Source: Salegentibacter agarivorans
Lineage (GTDB): Bacteria > Bacteroidota > Bacteroidia > Flavobacteriales > Flavobacteriaceae
Direction: 5' to 3'
NCBI RefSeq assembly: GCF_900113135.1
Contig: NZ_FOOH01000002.1
Span: 186,001 to 250,000 of the forward strand
Length of the DNA: 64,000 nt
Part shown: piece after piece, positions 4,297 to 15,068 of the stretch
Position numbering within the stretch: the first letter of the stretch is position 1
Layout of the letters: each line of letters begins with the position of its first letter
Program-made: the position numbers and the translations under genes
The notes under the pieces: generated by a model
Databases searched by the model: none
Told to the model about the DNA's origin: nothing
What the model saw: the letters and a program-made list of their open reading frames with translations, nothing else

Positions 4297-5013
4297 TTAA
4301 CTTCTGCTTAAAGCGTTTAAAATATCGGTTTGCTGACCTTCTTCAATATTGAAACCGGGTTTTCCTTTTCTTGGAAATAAATAGGCAAATTCTTCATCAA
4401 AAGCACTCCAGCTTCCTGCCAATCCAAAATCGTCGTTAGATTTATCCATTTTTGGTCTTTTAAAGGTATTTAAATTTGAATTATATGGAGAGCCTTCGGC
4501 ATCTTCACCCGGGAATAACATTCCATCGTTTACTTCAGAATAAATAACTACTGAAGCGCCACCGTTTCCTGGAAGATCAAAAACTTTTAAACCAAAATCT
4601 TTTAAAACTCCTTTGCGTTCTGTTATATCTTTGGTTTTAAAACTGTCTTTAAAATTGTTGCGTGGATGTGCAAAAATTGGTGCGCCACCGGCATCTTCAG
4701 AAATTGTCTTTAGATCGGCATAAGCATCTTTTAAAATAGCATCGCAGGTAATTAAAATACCTTTTATTTTATACCCATCGGTTACCAGCTTTTTTATAGC
4801 ATCTTTAGAAGATTTTTCAACTACATCAATAAGCAGTATATCCTGCCTGTTTATATGTCTAATAGCGTAACCCTGGTTAAAAACGCCATCTTTTTCTTCA
4901 CCTTTAATAATAAATGTGTCTGGGATTAACTTTAAAAATTTACCGGTTTCACCTTTTTCAACAAATTCGGCACTTTGGCTGTGCAGCACTTCCATCTTAT
5001 CAACAGTCTTCAT
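4297..5013 (-). CDS. Metallo-beta-lactamase-fold-like protein lacking the metal-binding motif
   Basis: This 239-residue cytoplasmic protein is not firmly recognised. Its segment order resembles an MBL-fold hydrolase: ILLIDVV (59-65); KGILITCDAILKDAYADL (84-101), where ILxTHxHxDH would be expected; IFAHPR (113-118); a strand-loop LPGNGGASVVIY (147-158), where PGHTPGS would be expected; and GMLFPGEDAEG (164-174), where LFxGD sits in true enzymes. None of the histidines of the HxHxDH motif is present, so hydrolase activity of the usual kind is unlikely. The C-terminal third is rich in Phe, Gly and Asp. I chose the ATG at 5013 rather than a TTG two codons upstream. The gene has its own terminator and sits alone between the aconitase gene and the polyketide operon. 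Confidence 0.45.
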   Translation of the reverse strand: MKTVDKMEVLHSQSAEFVEKGETGKFLKLIPDTFIIKGEEKDGVFNQGYAIRHINRQDILLIDVVEKSSKDAIKKLVTDGYKIKGILITCDAILKDAYADLKTISEDAGGAPIFAHPRNNFKDSFKTKDITERKGVLKDFGLKVFDLPGNGGASVVIYSEVNDGMLFPGEDAEGSPYNSNLNTFKRPKMDKSNDDFGLAGSWSAFDEEFAYLFPRKGKPGFNIEEGQQTDILNALSRS

Positions 5014-5086
5014 AATCAAAATCGTTTTAAATTAGTTGTTTCAAGATACAAATAAGGCTATGTTTTCACAATGCTGAAGTCGGGTT

Positions 5087-5650
5087 TTAGGACAGATTTA
5101 ACGAGACAGCGTAAGCTGAAAAATTACCGTGGTGGGAAAGGCTAAACGGAATTTGCAGATTATCACCCCCGTAGCTCACAAATGGTACTCCCTGCTGGTC
5201 TTTACTTATGTTAAGGGATTCTAATGGAATTCCTCTCTGCTCAGCAATTTTTTGAAGCAACCTGAGCCTGGAATTTTTATTTTCTGAAATAAGGGAAAAC
5301 TCAGTGTTTCCGGTAATTGTATGAATCATATTTGGAAAAAGAATAGAATTTATTACAAAAACATCTTCTTTATAGCACACCACTCCCCTTGCCTTATCAG
5401 GATTAATTTTAACCTGTTCGCAAACAAATTGCTTCGGATTATAAAAACGCTTCAGCTTATATTTACGCTGAACCGCTTTATAAACCGCCTCTTTCATACT
5501 CCAAAGCAACCAGACATTTAATTCAGGATCTTCTGAATTCTGAATAAAAGTTTGTTCTTCTTCCGAAAATAATTTCTGAAGAAAGCCTTCTCTTTGCCAG
5601 TTACTTTGAGCCCGAATCAGGTTAAGGTCTATGATATCGTTGCCAATCAC
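5087..5650 (-). CDS. 4'-phosphopantetheinyl transferase superfamily protein
   Basis: This 187-residue protein has the signatures of the Sfp/AcpS superfamily: GNDIIDL at 3-9 (Mg-binding Asp) and WSMKEAVYKA at 50-59, the W-x-x-K-E-x-x-x-K motif with Glu54 and Lys58. Such enzymes move 4'-phosphopantetheine from CoA to the serine of a carrier protein. It is the last gene of the eight-gene operon and overlaps the stop of the acyl carrier protein gene by 4 bp, so that ACP is its most likely substrate. Its size lies between AcpS (about 120 residues) and Sfp (about 230). The C-terminal SLSHHGNFSAYAVS is like the strand closing the second subdomain. Confidence 0.85.
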   Translation of the reverse strand: MIGNDIIDLNLIRAQSNWQREGFLQKLFSEEEQTFIQNSEDPELNVWLLWSMKEAVYKAVQRKYKLKRFYNPKQFVCEQVKINPDKARGVVCYKEDVFVINSILFPNMIHTITGNTEFSLISENKNSRLRLLQKIAEQRGIPLESLNISKDQQGVPFVSYGGDNLQIPFSLSHHGNFSAYAVSLNLS

Positions 5651-5901
5651 GCTGAAGCAAGTTTGCGCTCAATAATATTTTTAGCATCGCCCACAGTGAG
5701 CATACCTTCCATAGATTCGTTGTCTATTTCAATATTAAACTCGTCTTCAACATCCAAAATCACATCTACCAGGTTAGCCGAATTTACTTCCAGGTCTTTA
5801 ATAAAATCGGTTTTTTGGCTAAAATTTTCCAGGCCTTCCTTGCGTTGGGTATAAGGCGTGACGATCTTTTTGATAGCATCCAATATTTCTTTTTCTTTCA
5901 T
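5647..5901 (-). CDS. Acyl carrier protein of the type III PKS operon
   Basis: This 84-residue acidic helical protein has the ACP pattern. The phosphopantetheine serine is probably Ser41 in DLEVNSANLVDVILDVEDEF, where the usual DSL motif reads NSA. The following helix II (LVDVILDVEDEFNIEI) is typical. It lies between the ketosynthase gene (18-bp gap) and the phosphopantetheinyl transferase gene (4-bp overlap). The non-canonical DSL site and operon position suggest a dedicated carrier protein rather than the fatty-acid ACP, tethering the growing acyl chain for KS, dehydratase and reductase. Which thioester it passes on, and whether it hands it directly to the type III PKS, is inference. Confidence 0.88.
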   Translation of the reverse strand: MKEKEILDAIKKIVTPYTQRKEGLENFSQKTDFIKDLEVNSANLVDVILDVEDEFNIEIDNESMEGMLTVGDAKNIIERKLASA

Positions 5902-5919
5902 TTTTTGTAATAAATAGCT

Positions 5920-7182
5920 TTATATTTTTTTAAAAATAACTACGGAATTTACATCCCCAAATCCAAAACTGGATTTTGCCAGAATATTAGTTGGTATCTC
6001 TAAAGTTTTCCTTGGAATTTTCTCTTCTGAAACCAAATTTGCTATTTCCGGTTTCAGGTCTTCGCAATTCACATTTCCGAAGATAAAATTTTTATCCATC
6101 TGTAACACACTTGCAACACATTCTATACTTCCCGAAGCGGCCAGGCAATGCCCGGTCATTCCCTTTAAAGAATTTATATACGGAAAATCACTTCTTTTCA
6201 ATGCTTTCTTCCAATTCTCAATTTCCAGCGCATCTTTAGTGGTTGCGGTAAGATGCCCATTAATCACGTCGATTTCCTCTGATGAAATGTTAGAAAAATG
6301 AATAGCTTCCTTAATACAACGAATAACCGCTTCGCTATTAGCAGCCGTCATACTGCCACCACCCCGCTGGCCACCACTATTTACAGCACCACCTAAAACT
6401 TCGGCGTAAATTTTCGCGCCCCGCTCTTTAGCCGATTCGTATTCTTCTAACACCAAGGCCCCTGCTCCACTGCCGGGCACAAGACCTGCTGCCGAGGCGC
6501 TCATTGGCCGGGAAGCTTCAGTAGGATTTTTGTTATATTTTGAAGGTAAAATACGCATGGCATCAAAACCGCCCCAAACATAAGGGCCGTGATCGCTGCA
6601 GCTTCCAACTAACATTCGCTTTGCTTTTCCGGCAGCAATTCTTTCAAATCCCATTAATAAAGCTTCGGTGCCCGTGGTACAGGCCGAGGAGTTAGTAGTT
6701 ACCTGATTTCCGCAGCCTAAAATACCGCCTAAATAAGCGCTAATTCCACTGGCCATAGTTTGCATAACGCTGGTACTTCCCAACCTTCTGGTTTTCCCGG
6801 CATCTATTAAATGAATCGCTTCCCGAAATTTATCTACACCTAGAATTCCGGTGCCAAAAACAATTCCGCAGTCCCAATCTGGTTGTTCGTTATCTCCAAT
6901 TTTAAGTCCTGCATCCTGCCAGGCATCGGTTCCGGCAATTACCCCGTACACAATCCCGCTGGAATTAAGTCCGCGTAGTTGTAAAGACGTAAAATATTCA
7001 GCTATTTTTTCTTCCGAAAGTTGTGGTTTTCCAGCAATCTGGCAACTAAAGTTTAAACGTTCCAGTTCCTCTTCAAACCTAATCCCACTTGCGCTTTTTC
7101 TAATTGCATCTTCAAAATTAGCCAGCCCAACACCATTTGGTGCAACCACACCCATTCCTGTGATGACTACGCGCTTTTTCAT
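5920..7182 (-). CDS. Beta-ketoacyl synthase (FabF-like) of the type III PKS operon
   Basis: This 420-residue cytoplasmic thiolase-fold condensing enzyme has the full KS I/II triad: Cys168 in NSSACTTGTEAL, His310 in INGHLTATTKDALE and His345 in SLKGMTGHCLAASG, with the conserved Lys340. The C-terminus SSFGFGDVNSVVIF is the usual GFGG-like loop. Motifs are somewhat divergent (ACTTG instead of ACATS, NGHLTAT instead of NAHGTST), which suggests a specialised substrate rather than bulk fatty-acid elongation. No chain-length factor or acyltransferase lies next to it, so malonyl-ACP is presumably supplied by housekeeping FabD. The gene is 12 bp after the dehydratase gene and 18 bp before the ACP gene. 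It could also be compared with aryl-polyene KS enzymes, but the neighbours do not fit that pathway. Confidence 0.88.
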   Translation of the reverse strand: MKKRVVITGMGVVAPNGVGLANFEDAIRKSASGIRFEEELERLNFSCQIAGKPQLSEEKIAEYFTSLQLRGLNSSGIVYGVIAGTDAWQDAGLKIGDNEQPDWDCGIVFGTGILGVDKFREAIHLIDAGKTRRLGSTSVMQTMASGISAYLGGILGCGNQVTTNSSACTTGTEALLMGFERIAAGKAKRMLVGSCSDHGPYVWGGFDAMRILPSKYNKNPTEASRPMSASAAGLVPGSGAGALVLEEYESAKERGAKIYAEVLGGAVNSGGQRGGGSMTAANSEAVIRCIKEAIHFSNISSEEIDVINGHLTATTKDALEIENWKKALKRSDFPYINSLKGMTGHCLAASGSIECVASVLQMDKNFIFGNVNCEDLKPEIANLVSEEKIPRKTLEIPTNILAKSSFGFGDVNSVVIFKKI

Positions 7183-7194
7183 TTAAATAAATTT

Positions 7195-7641
7195 CTAAAC
7201 AGATTCGTTTTTAATCATTCCGGCAATCTTTCCGCGACAAATTAGCTTATCTTTCTTGCTATACATTCTTACTTCACATTTCAATTTATTAAACCTATAA
7301 AACAACTTTTCTGAAACTACTTTTACCGTTTCCCCGGGAAAAACCGGCAAGTAAAAATCTACTTCAGAAGAACTTAAGGCAAGTTTAATATTTTCAGAAT
7401 TAGTTTTTTCATTTCCCAGCAGGAAAATCCCCAGGCATACCACGCCAATTTGCGCCATACATTCAGTTAAAATAACACCTGGCGTTACCGGATTATTTTT
7501 AAAATGCCCTTTATAAAAAAAAGAATCTTCTGGAAATGTATAAATTCCTTCAGCAGATTTCTCATTTACGTTCAACAATTCATCTATAAATAGGAATGGC
7601 TTTGAATAAGGTAATTTTTCGAGTATGTTTTTATAATCCAA
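7195..7641 (-). CDS. FabZ-like 3-hydroxyacyl-ACP dehydratase
   Basis: This 148-residue single hotdog-fold protein has the FabZ pattern: LPYSKPFLFID (10-20), then FYKGHFKNNPVTPGVILTECMAQ, in which His46 and Glu60 are the expected catalytic pair. Length is normal for FabZ. FabZ removes water from 3-hydroxyacyl-ACP to give trans-2-enoyl-ACP. Its place between the reductase gene (7-bp gap) and ketosynthase gene (12-bp gap) indicates that it serves the carrier-protein chain made by this operon. A non-catalytic or thioesterase role is possible for hotdog proteins but less likely because both active-site residues are kept. Confidence 0.85.
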   Translation of the reverse strand: MDYKNILEKLPYSKPFLFIDELLNVNEKSAEGIYTFPEDSFFYKGHFKNNPVTPGVILTECMAQIGVVCLGIFLLGNEKTNSENIKLALSSSEVDFYLPVFPGETVKVVSEKLFYRFNKLKCEVRMYSKKDKLICRGKIAGMIKNESV

Positions 7642-7648
7642 TCGCTGC

Positions 7649-8443
7649 TTATTTTAAATGTTCCCCACCATTTACCGGAATAATAGTCCCCGTAATCCAA
7701 CCGGCTTCGTCTTTACTCAATAAATAAACCACATTGGCCACATCATTTGGAACGGTAAGCCTTTTAAACGGATTATGTTTTAGCGCGTGGTTGCGTAAAG
7801 TTTCGTTCCCGGGAATCATCTGGAAAGACCGGGTAACCGTAACTCCCGCCTGGATACAATTTGCGCGAATACCGTAAGGAGCAAATTCCAGGGCGATATT
7901 TCGGGTTATAGATTCTAAGGCTACTTTTGCTGCAGAAACCGCGGCGTAATTGGCCCAGGCTTTTTTATTGCCTTCACTGGTAAACGATATAATCCTGGCA
8001 TCTTTTGCAAAAAGATTAGCTTTGAAAATAGCTTTTGTCCAATCGTAAAGGCTAATAGCCATCGCATCTATAGTAATTTGAAAATCTACATTATCTAAAG
8101 TAGGTTCATCACCGGTCATAGGTTTTAGGTTTCCCTTTGCAATACTATGTACCAAACTTCTAATTTTGCCTTCTTTTCCTAAGATCTTAGCAATTTCTTC
8201 AATTAAATTTGCTCGTTTTTCAGCGTTTGTAGCATCCACATTAAAGCTTTCAAACTTAACATCCTGTTCTCTAATATCTTCAAAAGCTTCTTCTATTTCG
8301 GCTATATCGGTTCTTCTATCACGGTGTACTATAATTATATTCATCCCATGATGGGCGAGTTTTCTGGCGGTGGCAAAGCCAAGGCCTGTACTTCCGCCTA
8401 AAATAATTGCCCAGTAATTACGATCTTTAAACTCTGTTACCAT
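7649..8443 (-). CDS. SDR-family acyl-ACP reductase, FabI/FabL-like
   Basis: This 264-residue Rossmann-fold enzyme has nucleotide-binding GGSTGLG (16-22). It carries LVHSIAKG (97-104), like the HSIA segment of FabI, and the dyad Tyr166 and Lys173 in a Y-x6-K arrangement. Y-x6-K is the spacing of enoyl-ACP reductases FabI and FabL, whereas ketoreductases such as FabG use Y-x3-K. This favours enoyl reduction over ketoreduction. If so, the operon has no ketoreductase of its own and borrows FabG. The gene overlaps the type III PKS stop by 7 bp and precedes the dehydratase gene by 7 bp. Annotation as a generic 3-oxoacyl-ACP reductase would be the alternative. Confidence 0.8.
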   Translation of the reverse strand: MVTEFKDRNYWAIILGGSTGLGFATARKLAHHGMNIIIVHRDRRTDIAEIEEAFEDIREQDVKFESFNVDATNAEKRANLIEEIAKILGKEGKIRSLVHSIAKGNLKPMTGDEPTLDNVDFQITIDAMAISLYDWTKAIFKANLFAKDARIISFTSEGNKKAWANYAAVSAAKVALESITRNIALEFAPYGIRANCIQAGVTVTRSFQMIPGNETLRNHALKHNPFKRLTVPNDVANVVYLLSKDEAGWITGTIIPVNGGEHLK

Positions 8444-9489
8444 TCCAATAAAATTCTTTGTGCCGAAAAACCTGGACCAAAACTTAACATTAAGCCTTGC
8501 TCGCCCGGTTTTGGCTGATTTTTCATAAATTCTTCTAACACAAACAGCACCGTTGCACTGCTCATGTTCCCGTATTGCTTAAGCACCTCACGGGTTTTAT
8601 CAATATTCTTTCCTAAGTTACCAAAAAGATCTTCAACTGTTTGTACAATTTTCTTTCCGCCGGGATGAAATATTAAATGGTCTACTTTTTCAATATTTGA
8701 GTTGAATTTTTTCAAAAACGGATGAACAATTTCAGGAAAATGGGAAGCTATAGTTTGCGGCACGCTTTCATCTAAAATCATTTTGAGGCCGTGGTTGGTG
8801 AGATCAAAACCCATTAAATGGGTGGCTTCATAAAAATGATACATTTCTTCACCCAGAATTTTCGGCCCTGTAGCGTTTTCCTCTGAAGATAGCAATACAC
8901 AAGCGGCACCATCTCCAAAAATTGCAGCGCTCACCATATTGGCCATCGAGAAATCATCTAACTGAAATGTAGCCGTAGGACTTTCAACTGCAATAACGGC
9001 CGCTCGTTTTCCCGGATTTGCCTTAAGAAAATTCGCGGCATACATTATTCCTGAAATTCCTGCCGCGCAGCCCATTTCGGTAACCGGGAGCCGGGTAATA
9101 TCCTGGCGTAATTTTACTTCATTGATTAGGTAAGCATCTAAGGAAGGAATCATAATCCCGGTGCAACTCACGGTAATTATAAAATCGATTGAATCTGCTT
9201 CCCACTTATTATTCTGTAAAGCTTTTTTTAATACATTTTTGCCGAGTTTCTTAACTTCCCGTATATAAATATTGTTTTTATCTTCAAAAGAAGTTGCCGT
9301 GAAAACTTCTTCGGGATCCATTATAGAATAGCGTTTATCTACCGCAGCACCTTCAAAAATCTTCAATACTTTTCGTCGATAGCGATCATTTTGGTCCTGA
9401 AGCCAGGTTTCTACCAACGGTAAAATATCTTTGGTTTCCCGGGCATACTGCGGTAATTCTTTTTCTACGCCTGTAATTTTTACACTCAT
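8437..9489 (-). CDS. Type III polyketide synthase (chalcone/stilbene synthase family)
   Basis: This 350-residue protein is a type III PKS: nucleophile Cys141 in EMGCAAGISG, His275 in FHPGGKKIV, Asn308 in YGNMSSATVLF (the Cys-His-Asn triad), and a C-terminal FGPGFS loop matching the family GFGPG motif. Such enzymes extend an acyl-CoA or acyl-ACP starter with malonyl-CoA and cyclise it to resorcinols, pyrones, phloroglucinols or related rings without their own carrier domain. Neighbouring KS, dehydratase, reductase and ACP genes suggest an acyl chain from the carrier line as starter, as in the Azotobacter Ars system. The downstream tailoring genes recall the Streptomyces srsABC set. The product is unknown. 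It overlaps the methyltransferase gene by 4 bp. Confidence 0.92.
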   Translation of the reverse strand: MSVKITGVEKELPQYARETKDILPLVETWLQDQNDRYRRKVLKIFEGAAVDKRYSIMDPEEVFTATSFEDKNNIYIREVKKLGKNVLKKALQNNKWEADSIDFIITVSCTGIMIPSLDAYLINEVKLRQDITRLPVTEMGCAAGISGIMYAANFLKANPGKRAAVIAVESPTATFQLDDFSMANMVSAAIFGDGAACVLLSSEENATGPKILGEEMYHFYEATHLMGFDLTNHGLKMILDESVPQTIASHFPEIVHPFLKKFNSNIEKVDHLIFHPGGKKIVQTVEDLFGNLGKNIDKTREVLKQYGNMSSATVLFVLEEFMKNQPKPGEQGLMLSFGPGFSAQRILLEW

Positions 9490-10202
9490 ATTTTATCTTT
9501 CTGAATAATCCATTGGTAGCGAAATGCCCACTTCCAGCTAATTTGATGATTGGTTTGCGGAATTTTCCCGGCAAAATCTTTTAATTCTTCTTTTTTAAAT
9601 CCTCTTAAGATAGATGTCAACCCATCTTTTCGCGCAATCTCGTTGTTGATAAAAACTGCACAAAAAACCTGAAATAACCTATACGCAAGTTTGGAGCGAT
9701 GTAAATCGTTAATCACCACACCCAGCCTGGATTGTTGATTAAAAAGGTTTAGTAAAGCTGAAATTTCACCGTTTTTAAAATGATGTAGTGTTAAGGTACA
9801 CAAGATTATGTCGCTATAAAAATTTAATTCCAGGCTAAAAATATCTATAGATTTAAAATCAATTTCGGGATAGTCTATAGACATTTCTTCAGCAATTTTG
9901 ATGGCATAGCTATTGGCATCAATGCCGGTAAGTTTAAATTTATAGCCGTTCTTCCTTCCCCATCTCGCGATTTCCCGAAGTACAGCACCATTGCCGCAAC
10001 CCACATCAGCAATGTGGATTTCTTTCGTTTTCGAATGGTTTTGTACAATATTTTTTACTCCTTCTAAGGTGATTTTATTCCCACCCAACCATTTGTTTAT
10101 GTTATCCAGGTCACGTAAGGTTTTGTCCAGTTCTTTTCCCTGGAGGTCAAAATCGTCCATAATTTCAACCGCGTTTGTTCTTTTTGAGGTATCTATGCTC
10201 AT
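9486..10202 (-). CDS. Class I SAM-dependent methyltransferase of the PKS operon
   Basis: This 238-residue protein has the class I motif I as IADVGCGNGAVL (64-75), a second acidic strand in KLTGIDANSYAIKIAEEM, and motif IV around SDIILCTLTLHHF. It lies between the FAD oxidoreductase and type III PKS genes with 4-bp overlaps on both sides, so translation is probably coupled. The simplest reading is methylation of the hydroxyaromatic product of the PKS, comparable to SrsB in Streptomyces; O- versus C-methylation cannot be told from sequence. The C-terminal part is hydrophobic and aromatic (WKWAFRYQWII), which may bind a lipid-like substrate. Confidence 0.85.
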   Translation of the reverse strand: MSIDTSKRTNAVEIMDDFDLQGKELDKTLRDLDNINKWLGGNKITLEGVKNIVQNHSKTKEIHIADVGCGNGAVLREIARWGRKNGYKFKLTGIDANSYAIKIAEEMSIDYPEIDFKSIDIFSLELNFYSDIILCTLTLHHFKNGEISALLNLFNQQSRLGVVINDLHRSKLAYRLFQVFCAVFINNEIARKDGLTSILRGFKKEELKDFAGKIPQTNHQISWKWAFRYQWIIQKDKI

Positions 10203-11326
10203 ACTATGGGTTGCCCGTGGGTTTTACTAATGATTTTCTCTAACAGGTACGGAAATTTTTTAACGAGCTGCTGTGAAGTTGAAGCTAAAAATGGATTGAT
10301 CAATATTTTCTGAAGGATTCGTCCAGTCTTTAATCGGATTTCGAAATGCGTATTCCAGTTTTGTCGGTATTGATTTTCCAGGTTTTTGCGGTCTAAATTA
10401 TTTCCGTGGAAATTATTTAAAACAGCTTCTGAAGCGATTTTTCCAGAATGAATAGCCATAGCCATCCCATTACCACAAAGCGGGTGAATTAAGCCCGTAG
10501 CGTCACCCAGCATCAAAATATGATTGTTGATCAGGGATTTTTTATGAAAAGAGATCTGAGCAATACTCAGGTCTTTTTCAAATAGAGGTTTAGCTTTTTT
10601 AAAGAAACCTTTTAAATAAGCATTCTGAAATAAAACTTTTTCCTTGAATTCTTCGGTATTCCTGTATTTTTTGAAGCTTTTATACGAAACCATATAACAG
10701 GCGTTTACTGCGCCGGTTTCAGTTTTTGATAATCCGCAGTAGCCGCCTTCAAAATTGTGTAGCGCCACTAAATCTGGAGGAAATTCTGGCTTTTCATAAT
10801 GTGATTTTATAGCGAGCCAGGAAGATTTTTCCTGGATAAATTCCCGTCCCAGGCTTTTATCGAGATTAGATCTTTTTCCAAAAGCACCTAATACTATAGG
10901 GGTTTTTAGTTGTTTTCCTGAAGAAAGTTTCAGTGTAAATTCATCATTTTCAAAATTTATATTTTCAACTGATTCAATTAGAGTTTCTGCTCCATTTTCT
11001 TCAGCTTTTTTAAAAAGAAAATCATCTAAAGCATAACGGCTTAAGCCCATTCCGCCCAGGTTTAAAGAAGTTTCTATCGATTTTGCATTCTGGGTACTGT
11101 AAAGGAGTTTATGAATTTTTACCGGGTTTAAATCTTTTTCGAGATCTATATCCAGGGAATGGAGATAAGGAATTACTTCGTTAGAAAGGTATTCCCCACA
11201 GACTTTATGTCTGGGATATGCTTTTTTCTCTATAAGCAAGACACGTTTTCCTGCCCGGGAAAGATGAATGGCAGCAGTTAATCCCGCCAGGCCTGCACCT
11301 ACTATAATTACTTGAAAATCTGCCAT
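10199..11326 (-). CDS. FAD-dependent oxidoreductase (geranylgeranyl reductase/monooxygenase-like), first gene of the PKS operon
   Basis: This 375-residue flavoprotein has the dinucleotide-binding motif GAGLAG at 10-15 and a PRHKVCGEYLS segment (38-48) as in the geranylgeranyl reductase branch. The second FAD motif is GDATGLIHPLCGNGMAMAIHSG (274 onward). Family members hydroxylate aromatic rings or reduce isoprenoid double bonds. With a type III PKS and a methyltransferase in the same operon, ring hydroxylation to a quinol or quinone is plausible, as done by the SrsC flavoprotein. It is the promoter-proximal gene, starting 25 bp after the OmpA-type gene's terminator. Its stop overlaps the methyltransferase start (ATGA). 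Confidence 0.85.
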   Translation of the reverse strand: MADFQVIIVGAGLAGLTAAIHLSRAGKRVLLIEKKAYPRHKVCGEYLSNEVIPYLHSLDIDLEKDLNPVKIHKLLYSTQNAKSIETSLNLGGMGLSRYALDDFLFKKAEENGAETLIESVENINFENDEFTLKLSSGKQLKTPIVLGAFGKRSNLDKSLGREFIQEKSSWLAIKSHYEKPEFPPDLVALHNFEGGYCGLSKTETGAVNACYMVSYKSFKKYRNTEEFKEKVLFQNAYLKGFFKKAKPLFEKDLSIAQISFHKKSLINNHILMLGDATGLIHPLCGNGMAMAIHSGKIASEAVLNNFHGNNLDRKNLENQYRQNWNTHFEIRLKTGRILQKILINPFLASTSQQLVKKFPYLLEKIISKTHGQPIV

Positions 11327-11349: not shown

Positions 11350-11377
11350 AAAAAAATCCCGGAAATTTCCGGGATTT
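11350..11377 (-). terminator. Intrinsic terminator of the OmpA-family lipoprotein gene
   Basis: A perfect 24-bp palindrome (11354-11377; core CCCGG-AAATTT-CCGGG) is followed on the minus strand by seven T (11356-11350). It separates the OmpA gene (stop at 11402) from the polyketide operon starting at 11326. I found no exact TAnnTTTG between them, so the operon promoter is unassigned. Confidence 0.85.
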
Positions 11378-12978: not shown

Positions 12979-14985
12979 TTAATAGTCTATTAATTGCTGT
13001 AATTTTTCTTTCAATTTTTTCTTCGGAAGATATCCTTCTTCAAGTGCAGCGGCAAACGGAATTGGAGTTTCCCCACTGCCAAGTCGCATTACTGGAGCGT
13101 CTAAAAATTCAAAACATGCTTCTGAAATAATTGCTGAAATTTCTGAGGCTAAACTTCCAAAAAGCGAGTCTTCAGTAAGTACAAGTGCTTTTCCGGTCTT
13201 TTTAACCGAATTAATTATGGTCTCTTTATCTAAAGGTTGCAGGCTACGAAGATCTATTAATTCAATGTTTTCTAACTCTGCTCCCTCTAAGGTATCTAAA
13301 GCCCAGTGAACGGCTGCACCATAGGTTATAATTGTAAGTTTTTCCCCTTCTTTTAATATTGAAGCTTTTCCAAATGGTAAGGTGTAATAATCTAAAGGAA
13401 CTTCCTGCCGAATACTGCGGTATAAGGCCTTGTGTTCAAAGAATAACACGGGATTTGGATCGTTAAAAGCTGTATTCAGCAAGCCTTTTGCATCATATGG
13501 AAAAGCTGGGTAAACAACTTTTAAGCCCGGAATTTTAGTAAACCAGGCCTCGTTGGTCTGACTATGGAAAGGTCCTGCACCTACACCGGCTCCACAAGGC
13601 ATTCTTATAACCACATCGGCGTTTTGATTCCATCGGTAATTGCTTTTAGCCAGGTAATTTACAATAGGATTAAAACCGGAACTCACAAAATCTCCAAACT
13701 GCATTTCTACCATAGCCTTCATTCCATTTATAGAAAGTCCCATTGCAGTTCCAACAATAGCCGACTCGCAAATAGGTGTGTTTCGCACTCTTTCTTTGCC
13801 AAATTCTTCCAGTAATCCTTCAGTAATTTTAAAAACCCCACCGTATTCTGCAATATCCTGTCCCATTAACACCAGGGACTTATGTCTTTGCATAGATTGT
13901 TTTACCGCTTGAGAAATAGCGTCAATAAATCTTATAGTTTCAGTTTCTGAATTTGTTTTAATCTCTTGATATATAAACTCCTGGTAAACATCATTTAATT
14001 CATTAATTTCAATGTATTCTGAAACCGGTTCTTCATTAGCTGCTTTTAAATTTTCATCAATTTCAGCTTTAATTTCGTTTTTAAAGTGCACATCCTGCTC
14101 TTCAGAAAGTATATTTTCTTCTATGAGAAAACGTTTAAAATTCTCTACGGGATCTTTTTGTTGCCAGAAATTCATTAAATCTTCTGGAACGTATTTTGTT
14201 CCACTGGCTTCCTCGTGGCCGCGCATTCTAAAAGTTTTGAACTCCAGTAAAACCGGTCGGGGATTTTGTCTAATACTTTCAGCAACCTCAGAAACTTTAG
14301 AGTATACTTCAATTATATTATTTCCGTCTATAATATGAGATTCCATTCCGTAGCCCTGGGCCCGGTCGGCAAGATCTTTACATCTATATTGTTCATTTGT
14401 TGGAGTTGAAAGTCCGTAGCCATTGTTTTCTATGCAAAACAAAACCGGTAAATCCCAGACTGATGCAATATTTAGCGCTTCGTGAAAATCGCCTTCACTG
14501 GTGCCTCCCTCTCCAGTAAAAACCGCGGTAAGCTTATTTTCATTTTTCAATTTATGCGCTAAAGCAATCCCATCGGCCACGCCAAGCTGTGGGCCTAAAT
14601 GAGAAATCATTCCAACAATTTTATACTCCTGGGTACCAAAATGAAAACTGCGGTCACGACCTTTTGTGAAACCGTTTTGTTTTCCCTGCCACTGGGAGAA
14701 AAGTCGGTTTAAAGGGACGTTTCTAGAAGTAAATACTCCTAAATTACGGTGCATTGGTAAAATATACTCATCGGCGTTAAGCGCTTTCGTAACTCCAATG
14801 GAAATAGCTTCCTGGCCTATCCCACTAAACCATTTAGAAATTTTGCCCTGTCTTAGCAAGATGAGCATTTTTTCTTCTATTAAACGTGGCTTTAATAAAG
14901 ATGCATATAAGTCTAATAACTGGGTTGAGGAGAGATTTTTCTTCTCAAATTTTATAGCAGGCGGCTGGGAAGAATTTGGTTGCAT
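12979..14985 (-). CDS. 2-oxoacid dehydrogenase E1 component, fused alpha and beta subunits
   Basis: This protein of about 668 residues joins both E1 subunits of a branched-chain-type 2-oxoacid dehydrogenase. The alpha half (to about 330) carries the thiamine diphosphate motif beginning GEGGTSEGD and ending IENN (about 157-188). The beta half (from about 335) contains a transketolase-like pyrimidine domain (RFIDAISQAVKQSM, GQDIAEYGGVFK) and the C-terminal transketolase domain. It decarboxylates branched-chain 2-oxo acids (or pyruvate) and acylates the E2 lipoyl domain; E2 and E3 are not in the window. I prefer the ATG at 14985 (MQPNSS) over a TTG ten codons upstream. It is divergent from the 2OG oxygenase gene. 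Confidence 0.9.
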   Translation of the reverse strand: MQPNSSQPPAIKFEKKNLSSTQLLDLYASLLKPRLIEEKMLILLRQGKISKWFSGIGQEAISIGVTKALNADEYILPMHRNLGVFTSRNVPLNRLFSQWQGKQNGFTKGRDRSFHFGTQEYKIVGMISHLGPQLGVADGIALAHKLKNENKLTAVFTGEGGTSEGDFHEALNIASVWDLPVLFCIENNGYGLSTPTNEQYRCKDLADRAQGYGMESHIIDGNNIIEVYSKVSEVAESIRQNPRPVLLEFKTFRMRGHEEASGTKYVPEDLMNFWQQKDPVENFKRFLIEENILSEEQDVHFKNEIKAEIDENLKAANEEPVSEYIEINELNDVYQEFIYQEIKTNSETETIRFIDAISQAVKQSMQRHKSLVLMGQDIAEYGGVFKITEGLLEEFGKERVRNTPICESAIVGTAMGLSINGMKAMVEMQFGDFVSSGFNPIVNYLAKSNYRWNQNADVVIRMPCGAGVGAGPFHSQTNEAWFTKIPGLKVVYPAFPYDAKGLLNTAFNDPNPVLFFEHKALYRSIRQEVPLDYYTLPFGKASILKEGEKLTIITYGAAVHWALDTLEGAELENIELIDLRSLQPLDKETIINSVKKTGKALVLTEDSLFGSLASEISAIISEACFEFLDAPVMRLGSGETPIPFAAALEEGYLPKKKLKEKLQQLIDY

Positions 14986-15068
14986 AGTGTGTATTTGTTT
15001 ACCAAATGTAACCAAAATTATAAATGCTAAGAAATTTAAAAAGCCTCGTTAGCTCCCGTATTTTTCTT

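Follow-up and report, generated by a model that had tools for sequence, protein, structure and literature searches.

We found that a 64,000-nucleotide stretch of the Salegentibacter agarivorans genome (assembly GCF_900113135.1, contig NZ_FOOH01000002.1, positions 186,001 to 250,000; hereafter the window) carries an eight-gene operon that places a discrete acyl carrier protein (ACP) line next to a type III polyketide synthase (T3PKS), a methyltransferase (MT) and an oxidoreductase dependent on flavin adenine dinucleotide (FAD). That the eight genes form one pathway, as an earlier note made from the sequence of the window had proposed, is well supported by their co-occurrence, their fixed order, the retention of both halves where the operon is split, the co-evolution of the T3PKS with the ketosynthase (KS) and the broadly congruent trees of these two enzymes. 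We consider it probable that the type II acyl-ACP line loads a starter onto the T3PKS and that the resulting ring is then methylated and oxidised.

Gene content and layout of the operon

Eight open reading frames (ORFs), all on the minus strand, lie at 5087-11326 of the window. From the first gene to the last they are:

10199-11326, minus: FAD-dependent oxidoreductase of the geranylgeranyl-reductase/UbiH-like superfamily, 375 residues (TIGR02032, 129 bits, below cut-off)
9486-10202, minus: class I MT dependent on S-adenosylmethionine, 238 residues (best model NF004851, 140 bits, below cut-off)
8437-9489, minus: T3PKS of the chalcone/stilbene type, 350 residues (triad Cys141-His275-Asn308, clade-specific Pro171)
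7649-8443, minus: short-chain dehydrogenase/reductase (SDR) of the FabL/FabI-like enoyl reductase type, 264 residues (Tyr166-(x6)-Lys173)
7195-7641, minus: FabZ-like 3-hydroxyacyl-ACP dehydratase (DH), 148 residues (His46/Glu60)
5920-7182, minus: FabF/FabB-like KS, 420 residues (Cys168/His310/Lys340/His345)
5647-5901, minus: discrete ACP, 84 residues (attachment Ser41, Asn-Ser-Ala motif)
5087-5650, minus: phosphopantetheinyl transferase (PPTase) of the ACPS fold, 187 residues, an optional gene (motif order GND-KEA-GxP-SHHG)

Pfam and NCBIfam back all eight assignments, and the intergenic spacings from the FAD gene to the PPTase gene (-4, -4, -7, +7, +12, +18 and -4 bases) bear out the set, the order and the tight packing, with overlaps or gaps of at most 18 bp, that the earlier note had described. 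The NCBIfam scores of the operon proteins nevertheless fall below the curated cut-offs, indicating that these proteins are distinct subfamilies. By ORF list, Pfam and NCBIfam, no ketoreductase is present among the eight genes; the acyl line is thus not self-contained and its ketoreductase must be borrowed.

Linkage and co-evolution of the operon genes

We read the surroundings of 142 loci of the T3PKS clade (some records being counted twice; membership was set at 60% identity or more, with one split gene admitted at 57 and 71%) and counted genes within 5.5 kb of the T3PKS at 102 Flavobacteriaceae loci other than that of the window. The order FAD-MT-T3PKS-(SDR)-DH-KS-ACP-(PPTase), with the SDR and PPTase genes optional, holds at 102/102 family loci, barring absent genes and one doubled ACP. 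FAD, MT and T3PKS genes are adjacent in the window and at all 102, DH is present at 97, KS at 96, ACP at 94, SDR at 93 and PPTase at 30; at two further loci (L183, L185) the ACP gene lies just past the cut. No core gene is on the opposite strand at any of the 142 clade loci. Because this order is conserved in the family and in other lineages, chance is ruled out; the neighbourhood comparison called for at the outset revealed homologues that are co-located rather than scattered. At 71 loci the operon lies downstream of the same OmpA-type gene, which suggests an old, vertically kept position.

Where the operon is broken up, both halves persist. In three genomes (G190, G144 and G276) the DH-KS-ACP(-PPTase) block is located elsewhere in the assembly (L194-L196), and in a fourth (G066) the halves are parted by a contig end (L180, L197). 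The same holds across genomes: the T3PKS clade occurs in 103 of the 299 sampled Flavobacteriaceae genomes, and the operon KS, searched for separately (E at most 1e-80), in 101, all of them within those 103 and none among the 196 sampled family genomes without the T3PKS clade. Of the two exceptions, one (G293) has a contig that stops after the DH gene (L168), and the other is G138 (L193), where no KS was found.

The evolutionary distances point the same way. Among the 62 loci at which the six core genes and the three flanking genes are all present, T3PKS and KS distances correlate at 0.81, and still at 0.71 once the three flanking genes are regressed out (0 of 999 permutations as high); the correlations with the T3PKS are 0.64 for FAD, 0.45 for DH and 0.45 for MT. 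Phylogenies of the T3PKS and the KS, another check foreseen in the earlier note, agree in their main groups, with Pedobacter and Chitinophaga near Flavobacterium in both, in trees that were built by a quick method, have several open forks and, for the KS, are midpoint-rooted only. Both trees mix Pedobacter, Spirosoma and Chitinophaga with Flavobacteriaceae, the simplest reading of which is that the operon was transferred as a whole between orders.

These data bear on the alternative that the T3PKS draws acyl-coenzyme A (acyl-CoA) from the general pool while the ACP genes make a separate lipid and merely share the operon. CoA starters are general among T3PKSs (PMC6274091; papers are cited here from excerpts, to which the statements drawn from them are confined), the two halves are physically separable in three genomes and one genome (G138) retains the T3PKS half alone. 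Since the KS is never found without the T3PKS among the 299 genomes, the two co-evolve and they occur together in other orders too, we nonetheless regard this alternative as very unlikely.

Distribution of the operon

The operon is no rarity, about one in three of the sampled family genomes carrying it. T3PKS biosynthetic gene clusters make up 9% of those of Flavobacteriaceae and are the second most frequent class in one survey (excerpt of PMC7440613), and may include the present operon. In a phylum sample, 165 of 395 genomes gave a T3PKS match at E 1e-30; among the matches listed, 33 stand at 66% identity or more and the next at 37%. The three clade members from other families in this sample are G375, G428 and G536. 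A scan with strict peptide patterns, which retrieves close relatives only, added Pedobacter, Spirosoma, Chitinophaga and [Flexibacter] ATCC 35208 as named members from beyond the family. Among named relatives, Salegentibacter species stand closest (85-92% identity in the T3PKS), and Flavobacterium johnsoniae strain CI04 (L109) has seven operon genes and no SDR. Beyond the Bacteroidota, coverage consisted solely of the same strict-pattern scan and a search of plasmid records, in which the operon KS was unmatched at E 1e-60, while the 176 records that the T3PKS did match were all below 60% identity. A 3.4 kb contig in a metagenome-assembled genome labelled Klebsiella pneumoniae (L117) carries T3-DH-KS-ACP-PPTase at flavobacterial identity (T3PKS 73%) and is probably mis-binned. 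By tblastn, the T3PKS of L067 (G150, about 7669-8708) and the KS of L062 (G205, about 10429) are each in two pieces, perhaps through decay or sequencing error.

As a control we took 16 distant loci whose T3PKS matches at 28-35%, 14 from 132 distant genomes of the phylum sample and two from the family sample, of which L069 is possibly another KS type. In the 13-17 kb around these T3PKS genes, KS, DH, ACP and PPTase gave no match at E 1e-4, and one locus has a 24% SDR match 5 kb from the T3PKS; at three (L088, L089 and L093) both FAD and MT genes adjoin the T3PKS. The ACP line therefore looks, from the 16 distant loci examined, like an addition to a known FAD-MT-T3PKS trio.

Active sites and the clade-specific proline of the T3PKS

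The residues expected for catalysis are intact. The T3PKS has the Cys-His-Asn triad of the thiolase fold, kept in 142/142 relatives (C141/H275/N308), and its fold model is nearest to Mycobacterium tuberculosis PKS11 and, ranked second, to CylI (TM about 0.9). Its best NCBIfam model is DpgA (176 bits against a cut-off of 425). A Y(x)6K spacing marks enoyl reductases and Y-x3-K ketoreductases; the SDR has Lys seven residues past Tyr166, i.e. the enoyl reductase spacing, keeps Y166/K173 in 107/107 and finds its best PDB match in the enoyl-ACP reductase 3oic. H46/E60 of the DH are kept in 137/137, C168/H310/K340/H345 of the KS in 136/136 (FabF 257 bits and FabB 236 bits, about equal) and Asp66 and Asp95 of the MT in 141/141. 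The ACP, with a Pfam score (19.9 bits) just under the cut-off of 20.8, keeps Ser41 in 134/134 and has Asn-Ser-Ala in place of the usual attachment motif Asp-Ser-Leu. The discrete type II line of the earlier note thus stands insofar as KS, DH, enoyl reductase and ACP are separate proteins with the tested residues intact, and falls short in that the ketoreductase is missing and that no SDR is found at named Flavobacterium or Pedobacter loci.

One T3PKS position sets the clade apart. In the segment E-x-P-x-x-T-F, Pro171 is found at 142/142 clade loci, whereas the equivalent residue in 16 distant T3PKSs, read by eye, is Cys in 15 and Ser in one (a set close to the distant-locus control, with L078 in and L069 out). 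In PDB alignments the equivalent is Cys in PKS11, PKS18, THNS and Steely1, Ser in CylI and two others and Thr in one chalcone synthase, none of the T3PKSs in these alignments having Pro. Pro171 corresponds, with PKS18 placed via L088, to C205 of PKS18, which a figure legend in PMC6274091 gives as an acyl-tunnel residue. The clade therefore probably has an altered starter pocket, and this speaks against taking an ordinary long-chain phenolic lipid for granted.

The proposed pathway and its alternatives

We propose that the private, discrete ACP carries an acyl chain which the KS, the FabZ-like DH and the FabL-like enoyl reductase assemble or lengthen, while primary metabolism lends a ketoreductase (FabG) and a malonyl transferase (FabD). 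The T3PKS would take the acyl group off the ACP as its starter, extend it with malonyl-CoA and cyclise it to a resorcinol- or pyrone-type ring, which the MT and the FAD enzyme would methylate and oxidise. The neighbouring PPTase would activate the ACP where it is present; elsewhere another PPTase must. The transfer from ACP to T3PKS, the product class and the order of tailoring are inferred from the Ars, germicidin synthase and Cyl precedents. If the hand-over is real, the principle by which a fatty-acid synthase (FAS) feeds a T3PKS would be extended from type I FAS to discrete enzymes, and a lipid could be assigned to about a third of the family. A bolder version, which we entertain tentatively and would not be surprised to see fail, holds that this near-core line of a third of the sampled Flavobacteriaceae serves a T3PKS whose tunnel was remodelled, through the proline, to accept acyl groups from the private Asn-Ser-Ala ACP only, and makes a new class of Bacteroidota membrane lipid or quinone.

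Several findings weigh against the acyl-ACP hand-over. Besides the missing ketoreductase, the named Flavobacterium and Pedobacter loci have no SDR gene, nor do 9/102 family loci, the DH is absent from L054, and G138 has FAD-MT-T3-SDR with no KS found (L193). The distances of the ACP, a short protein, do not co-vary with those of the T3PKS (partial r 0.07; 180 of 999 permutations) or the KS (0.12), and L054, L057, L066 and Spirosoma are placed differently in the T3PKS and KS trees. Given Pro171, the starter may be something other than an ordinary long-chain fatty acyl group, and the enzymatic roles and the product are predicted from the genes alone.

The missing ketoreductase, together with the nearness of the CylI fold, keeps a variant alive in which the KS passes on an unreduced beta-ketoacyl-ACP, DH and enoyl reductase serve earlier rounds only and the T3PKS starts from a beta-ketoacyl chain, an option open to germicidin synthase and CylI as well. 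CylI, the second-ranked fold, was solved with a beta-ketoacyl substrate, and Song et al. 2006, cited in PMC6274091, reports by its title beta-ketoacyl-ACP as a T3PKS starter. With DH at 97/102 and SDR at 93/102 family loci, however, full reduction is indicated at least in earlier rounds, and we consider this variant unlikely while keeping it in play.

The reverse order is also conceivable: the T3PKS would make an aromatic acyl-CoA, as DpgA does, the ACP would be charged with this product, and KS, DH and SDR would then lengthen it. The DpgA match and the changed acyl pocket suggested by Pro171 speak for it, but the 12 NCBIfam hits include no other type III PKS model, so that the match is a weak guide. 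Moreover, no ligase or acyltransferase for ACP loading is among the eight genes; going by first residues, without annotation, we recognised none in the 30 commonest neighbour clusters either, and a related FAD-MT-T3PKS trio occurs where there is no ACP line at all. We therefore hold the reverse order to be distinctly improbable.

The operon can be told apart from flexirubin or aryl polyene-dialkylresorcinol biosynthesis, which came into question because flexirubin-type genes in this genome combine KS, SDR and small proteins in much the same way. On the same contig, at a distance of about 69-79 kb from the operon, is a separate flexirubin cluster whose FlxA (a tyrosine ammonia-lyase), FlxB and LolA2 all exceed their cut-offs:

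C32:262000-280063 (L215), outside the window: flexirubin region, NCBIfam cut-offs passed by FlxA, FlxB and LolA2

With the FlxB model the operon SDR reaches 88, where the cut-off is 340, and with DarB the T3PKS reaches 22, where it is 550. As a separate cluster exists and FlxA-, FlxB- and DarB-type genes are not in the set, we rejected a flexirubin origin. In this genome (4.3 Mb in 56 contigs), a separate FabF-like KS also stands beside another ACP; together with the flexirubin genes, it shows that the operon comes in addition to primary fatty-acid synthesis and flexirubin.

Comparison with known systems

The three core functions of the operon are also adjacent in hidABC / the planctomycetal MT-FAD-T3PKS operon and in Streptomyces srsABC, the last of which we take to comprise a type III PKS, a methyltransferase and a flavoprotein. 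Germicidin synthase uses the general ACP and has no private ACP line. Like the T3PKS in our proposal, germicidin synthase (Streptomyces coelicolor) and ArsB/ArsC take acyl-ACP as starter (PMC6274091). In Azotobacter vinelandii ArsABCD, chains on the ACP of a dedicated FAS pass directly to T3PKSs that make alkylresorcinols or alkylpyrones (PMC6274091), a route akin to that proposed here; Ars, as excerpted, has a type I FAS and two T3PKSs, whereas in the operon all enzymes are discrete, with one T3PKS, an MT and an FAD enzyme. The FAS-to-T3PKS principle is thus already known, and the operon, in which the discrete enzymes are new, may work like Azotobacter Ars or cyanobacterial Cyl. In the cylindrocyclophane system (CylB-CylD/H-CylI), too, the chain that reaches CylI, a near fold, starts out on CylB, a free-standing ACP, but there two type I PKSs elongate it and a halogenase takes part (PMC8086630).

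The MT-FAD-T3PKS operons are tied to alkylresorcinol formation, the T3PKSs of the Planctomycetota trio yielding alkylresorcinols and the G. maris methyltransferase being probably a C-methyltransferase (PMC10896814). Unlike the present operon, they are described, in the excerpt of that paper, with acyl-CoA starters proposed and without ACP, KS, DH or enoyl reductase. The closest solved relative of the T3PKS by both sequence and fold is Mycobacterium PKS11 (about 28% identical), with PKS18 also matched (about 23%); both differ from it in having Cys, not Pro, at the tunnel position.

In the open-access literature searched, as far as excerpted and with MIBiG and most subscription journals outside the search, we found neither a characterised pathway of the same composition nor a product for this architecture. 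As excerpted, two papers merely mention T3PKS clusters (PMC12376047, PMC10608841), a third describes other T3PKSs (PMC8776678), and the koreenceine cluster (PMC6498172), a Pseudomonas type II PKS, was set aside as unrelated.

The PPTase is an optional partner

The dedicated PPTase that had been predicted is present at the window locus and missing from most relatives; with an adjacent PPTase at merely 30/102 other family loci, it is not a defining part of the operon. PPTases of the AcpS type have the order GxD-KEA-SHxx in about 120 residues, and those of the Sfp type have the SHS half ahead of the GIDIE...KES half. The operon PPTase, in which D5/K53/E54 are kept in 68/68, lacks the Sfp order and follows the AcpS-like one, but is longer at 187 residues; since its motif order matches AcpS, a circular permutation was dropped. 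Its fold model (pLDDT 90) gave only partial matches to PPTases of both types, AcpS and Sfp being matched by Foldseek at TMq 0.27-0.47 and not separated. One further PPTase in the genome has the Sfp motif order. ACP identity to the window ACP is 45-93% at loci with a PPTase (n=68) and 31-50% at those without (n=66), a split that fits a partner effect and is confounded by relatedness, as the Salegentibacter loci are in the PPTase group.

A small membrane-type protein of about 145 residues (L036:4622-5059, L041:12117-12548 and 26 other loci; no Pfam match in the two members scanned) is encoded directly behind the last operon gene at 27 loci, and a PPTase gene is also present at 4/28 of its loci.

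Surroundings of the operon in the window

Between the upstream OmpA-type gene and the operon lies a hairpin, one of 12 terminator-like sites, shuffled sequences giving 7.6 on average:

11354-11377, minus: terminator-like hairpin, 10 pairs with T tail, a consensus match only

As it lies 27 bases ahead of the FAD start codon, either the promoter is very short-spaced or the operon is transcribed by read-through from the OmpA-type gene.

Further upstream, 12979-15015 encodes a fused two-subunit E1 dehydrogenase of the 2-oxoacid type, and members of its cluster are near the operon at 79/142 loci. A link to branched-chain starters is conceivable, but this may be plain synteny. Downstream, on the same strand as the operon, 4297-5019 encodes a protein of 240 residues (no Pfam match at E 0.01), apparent relatives of which lie directly downstream of the operon at 9 loci.

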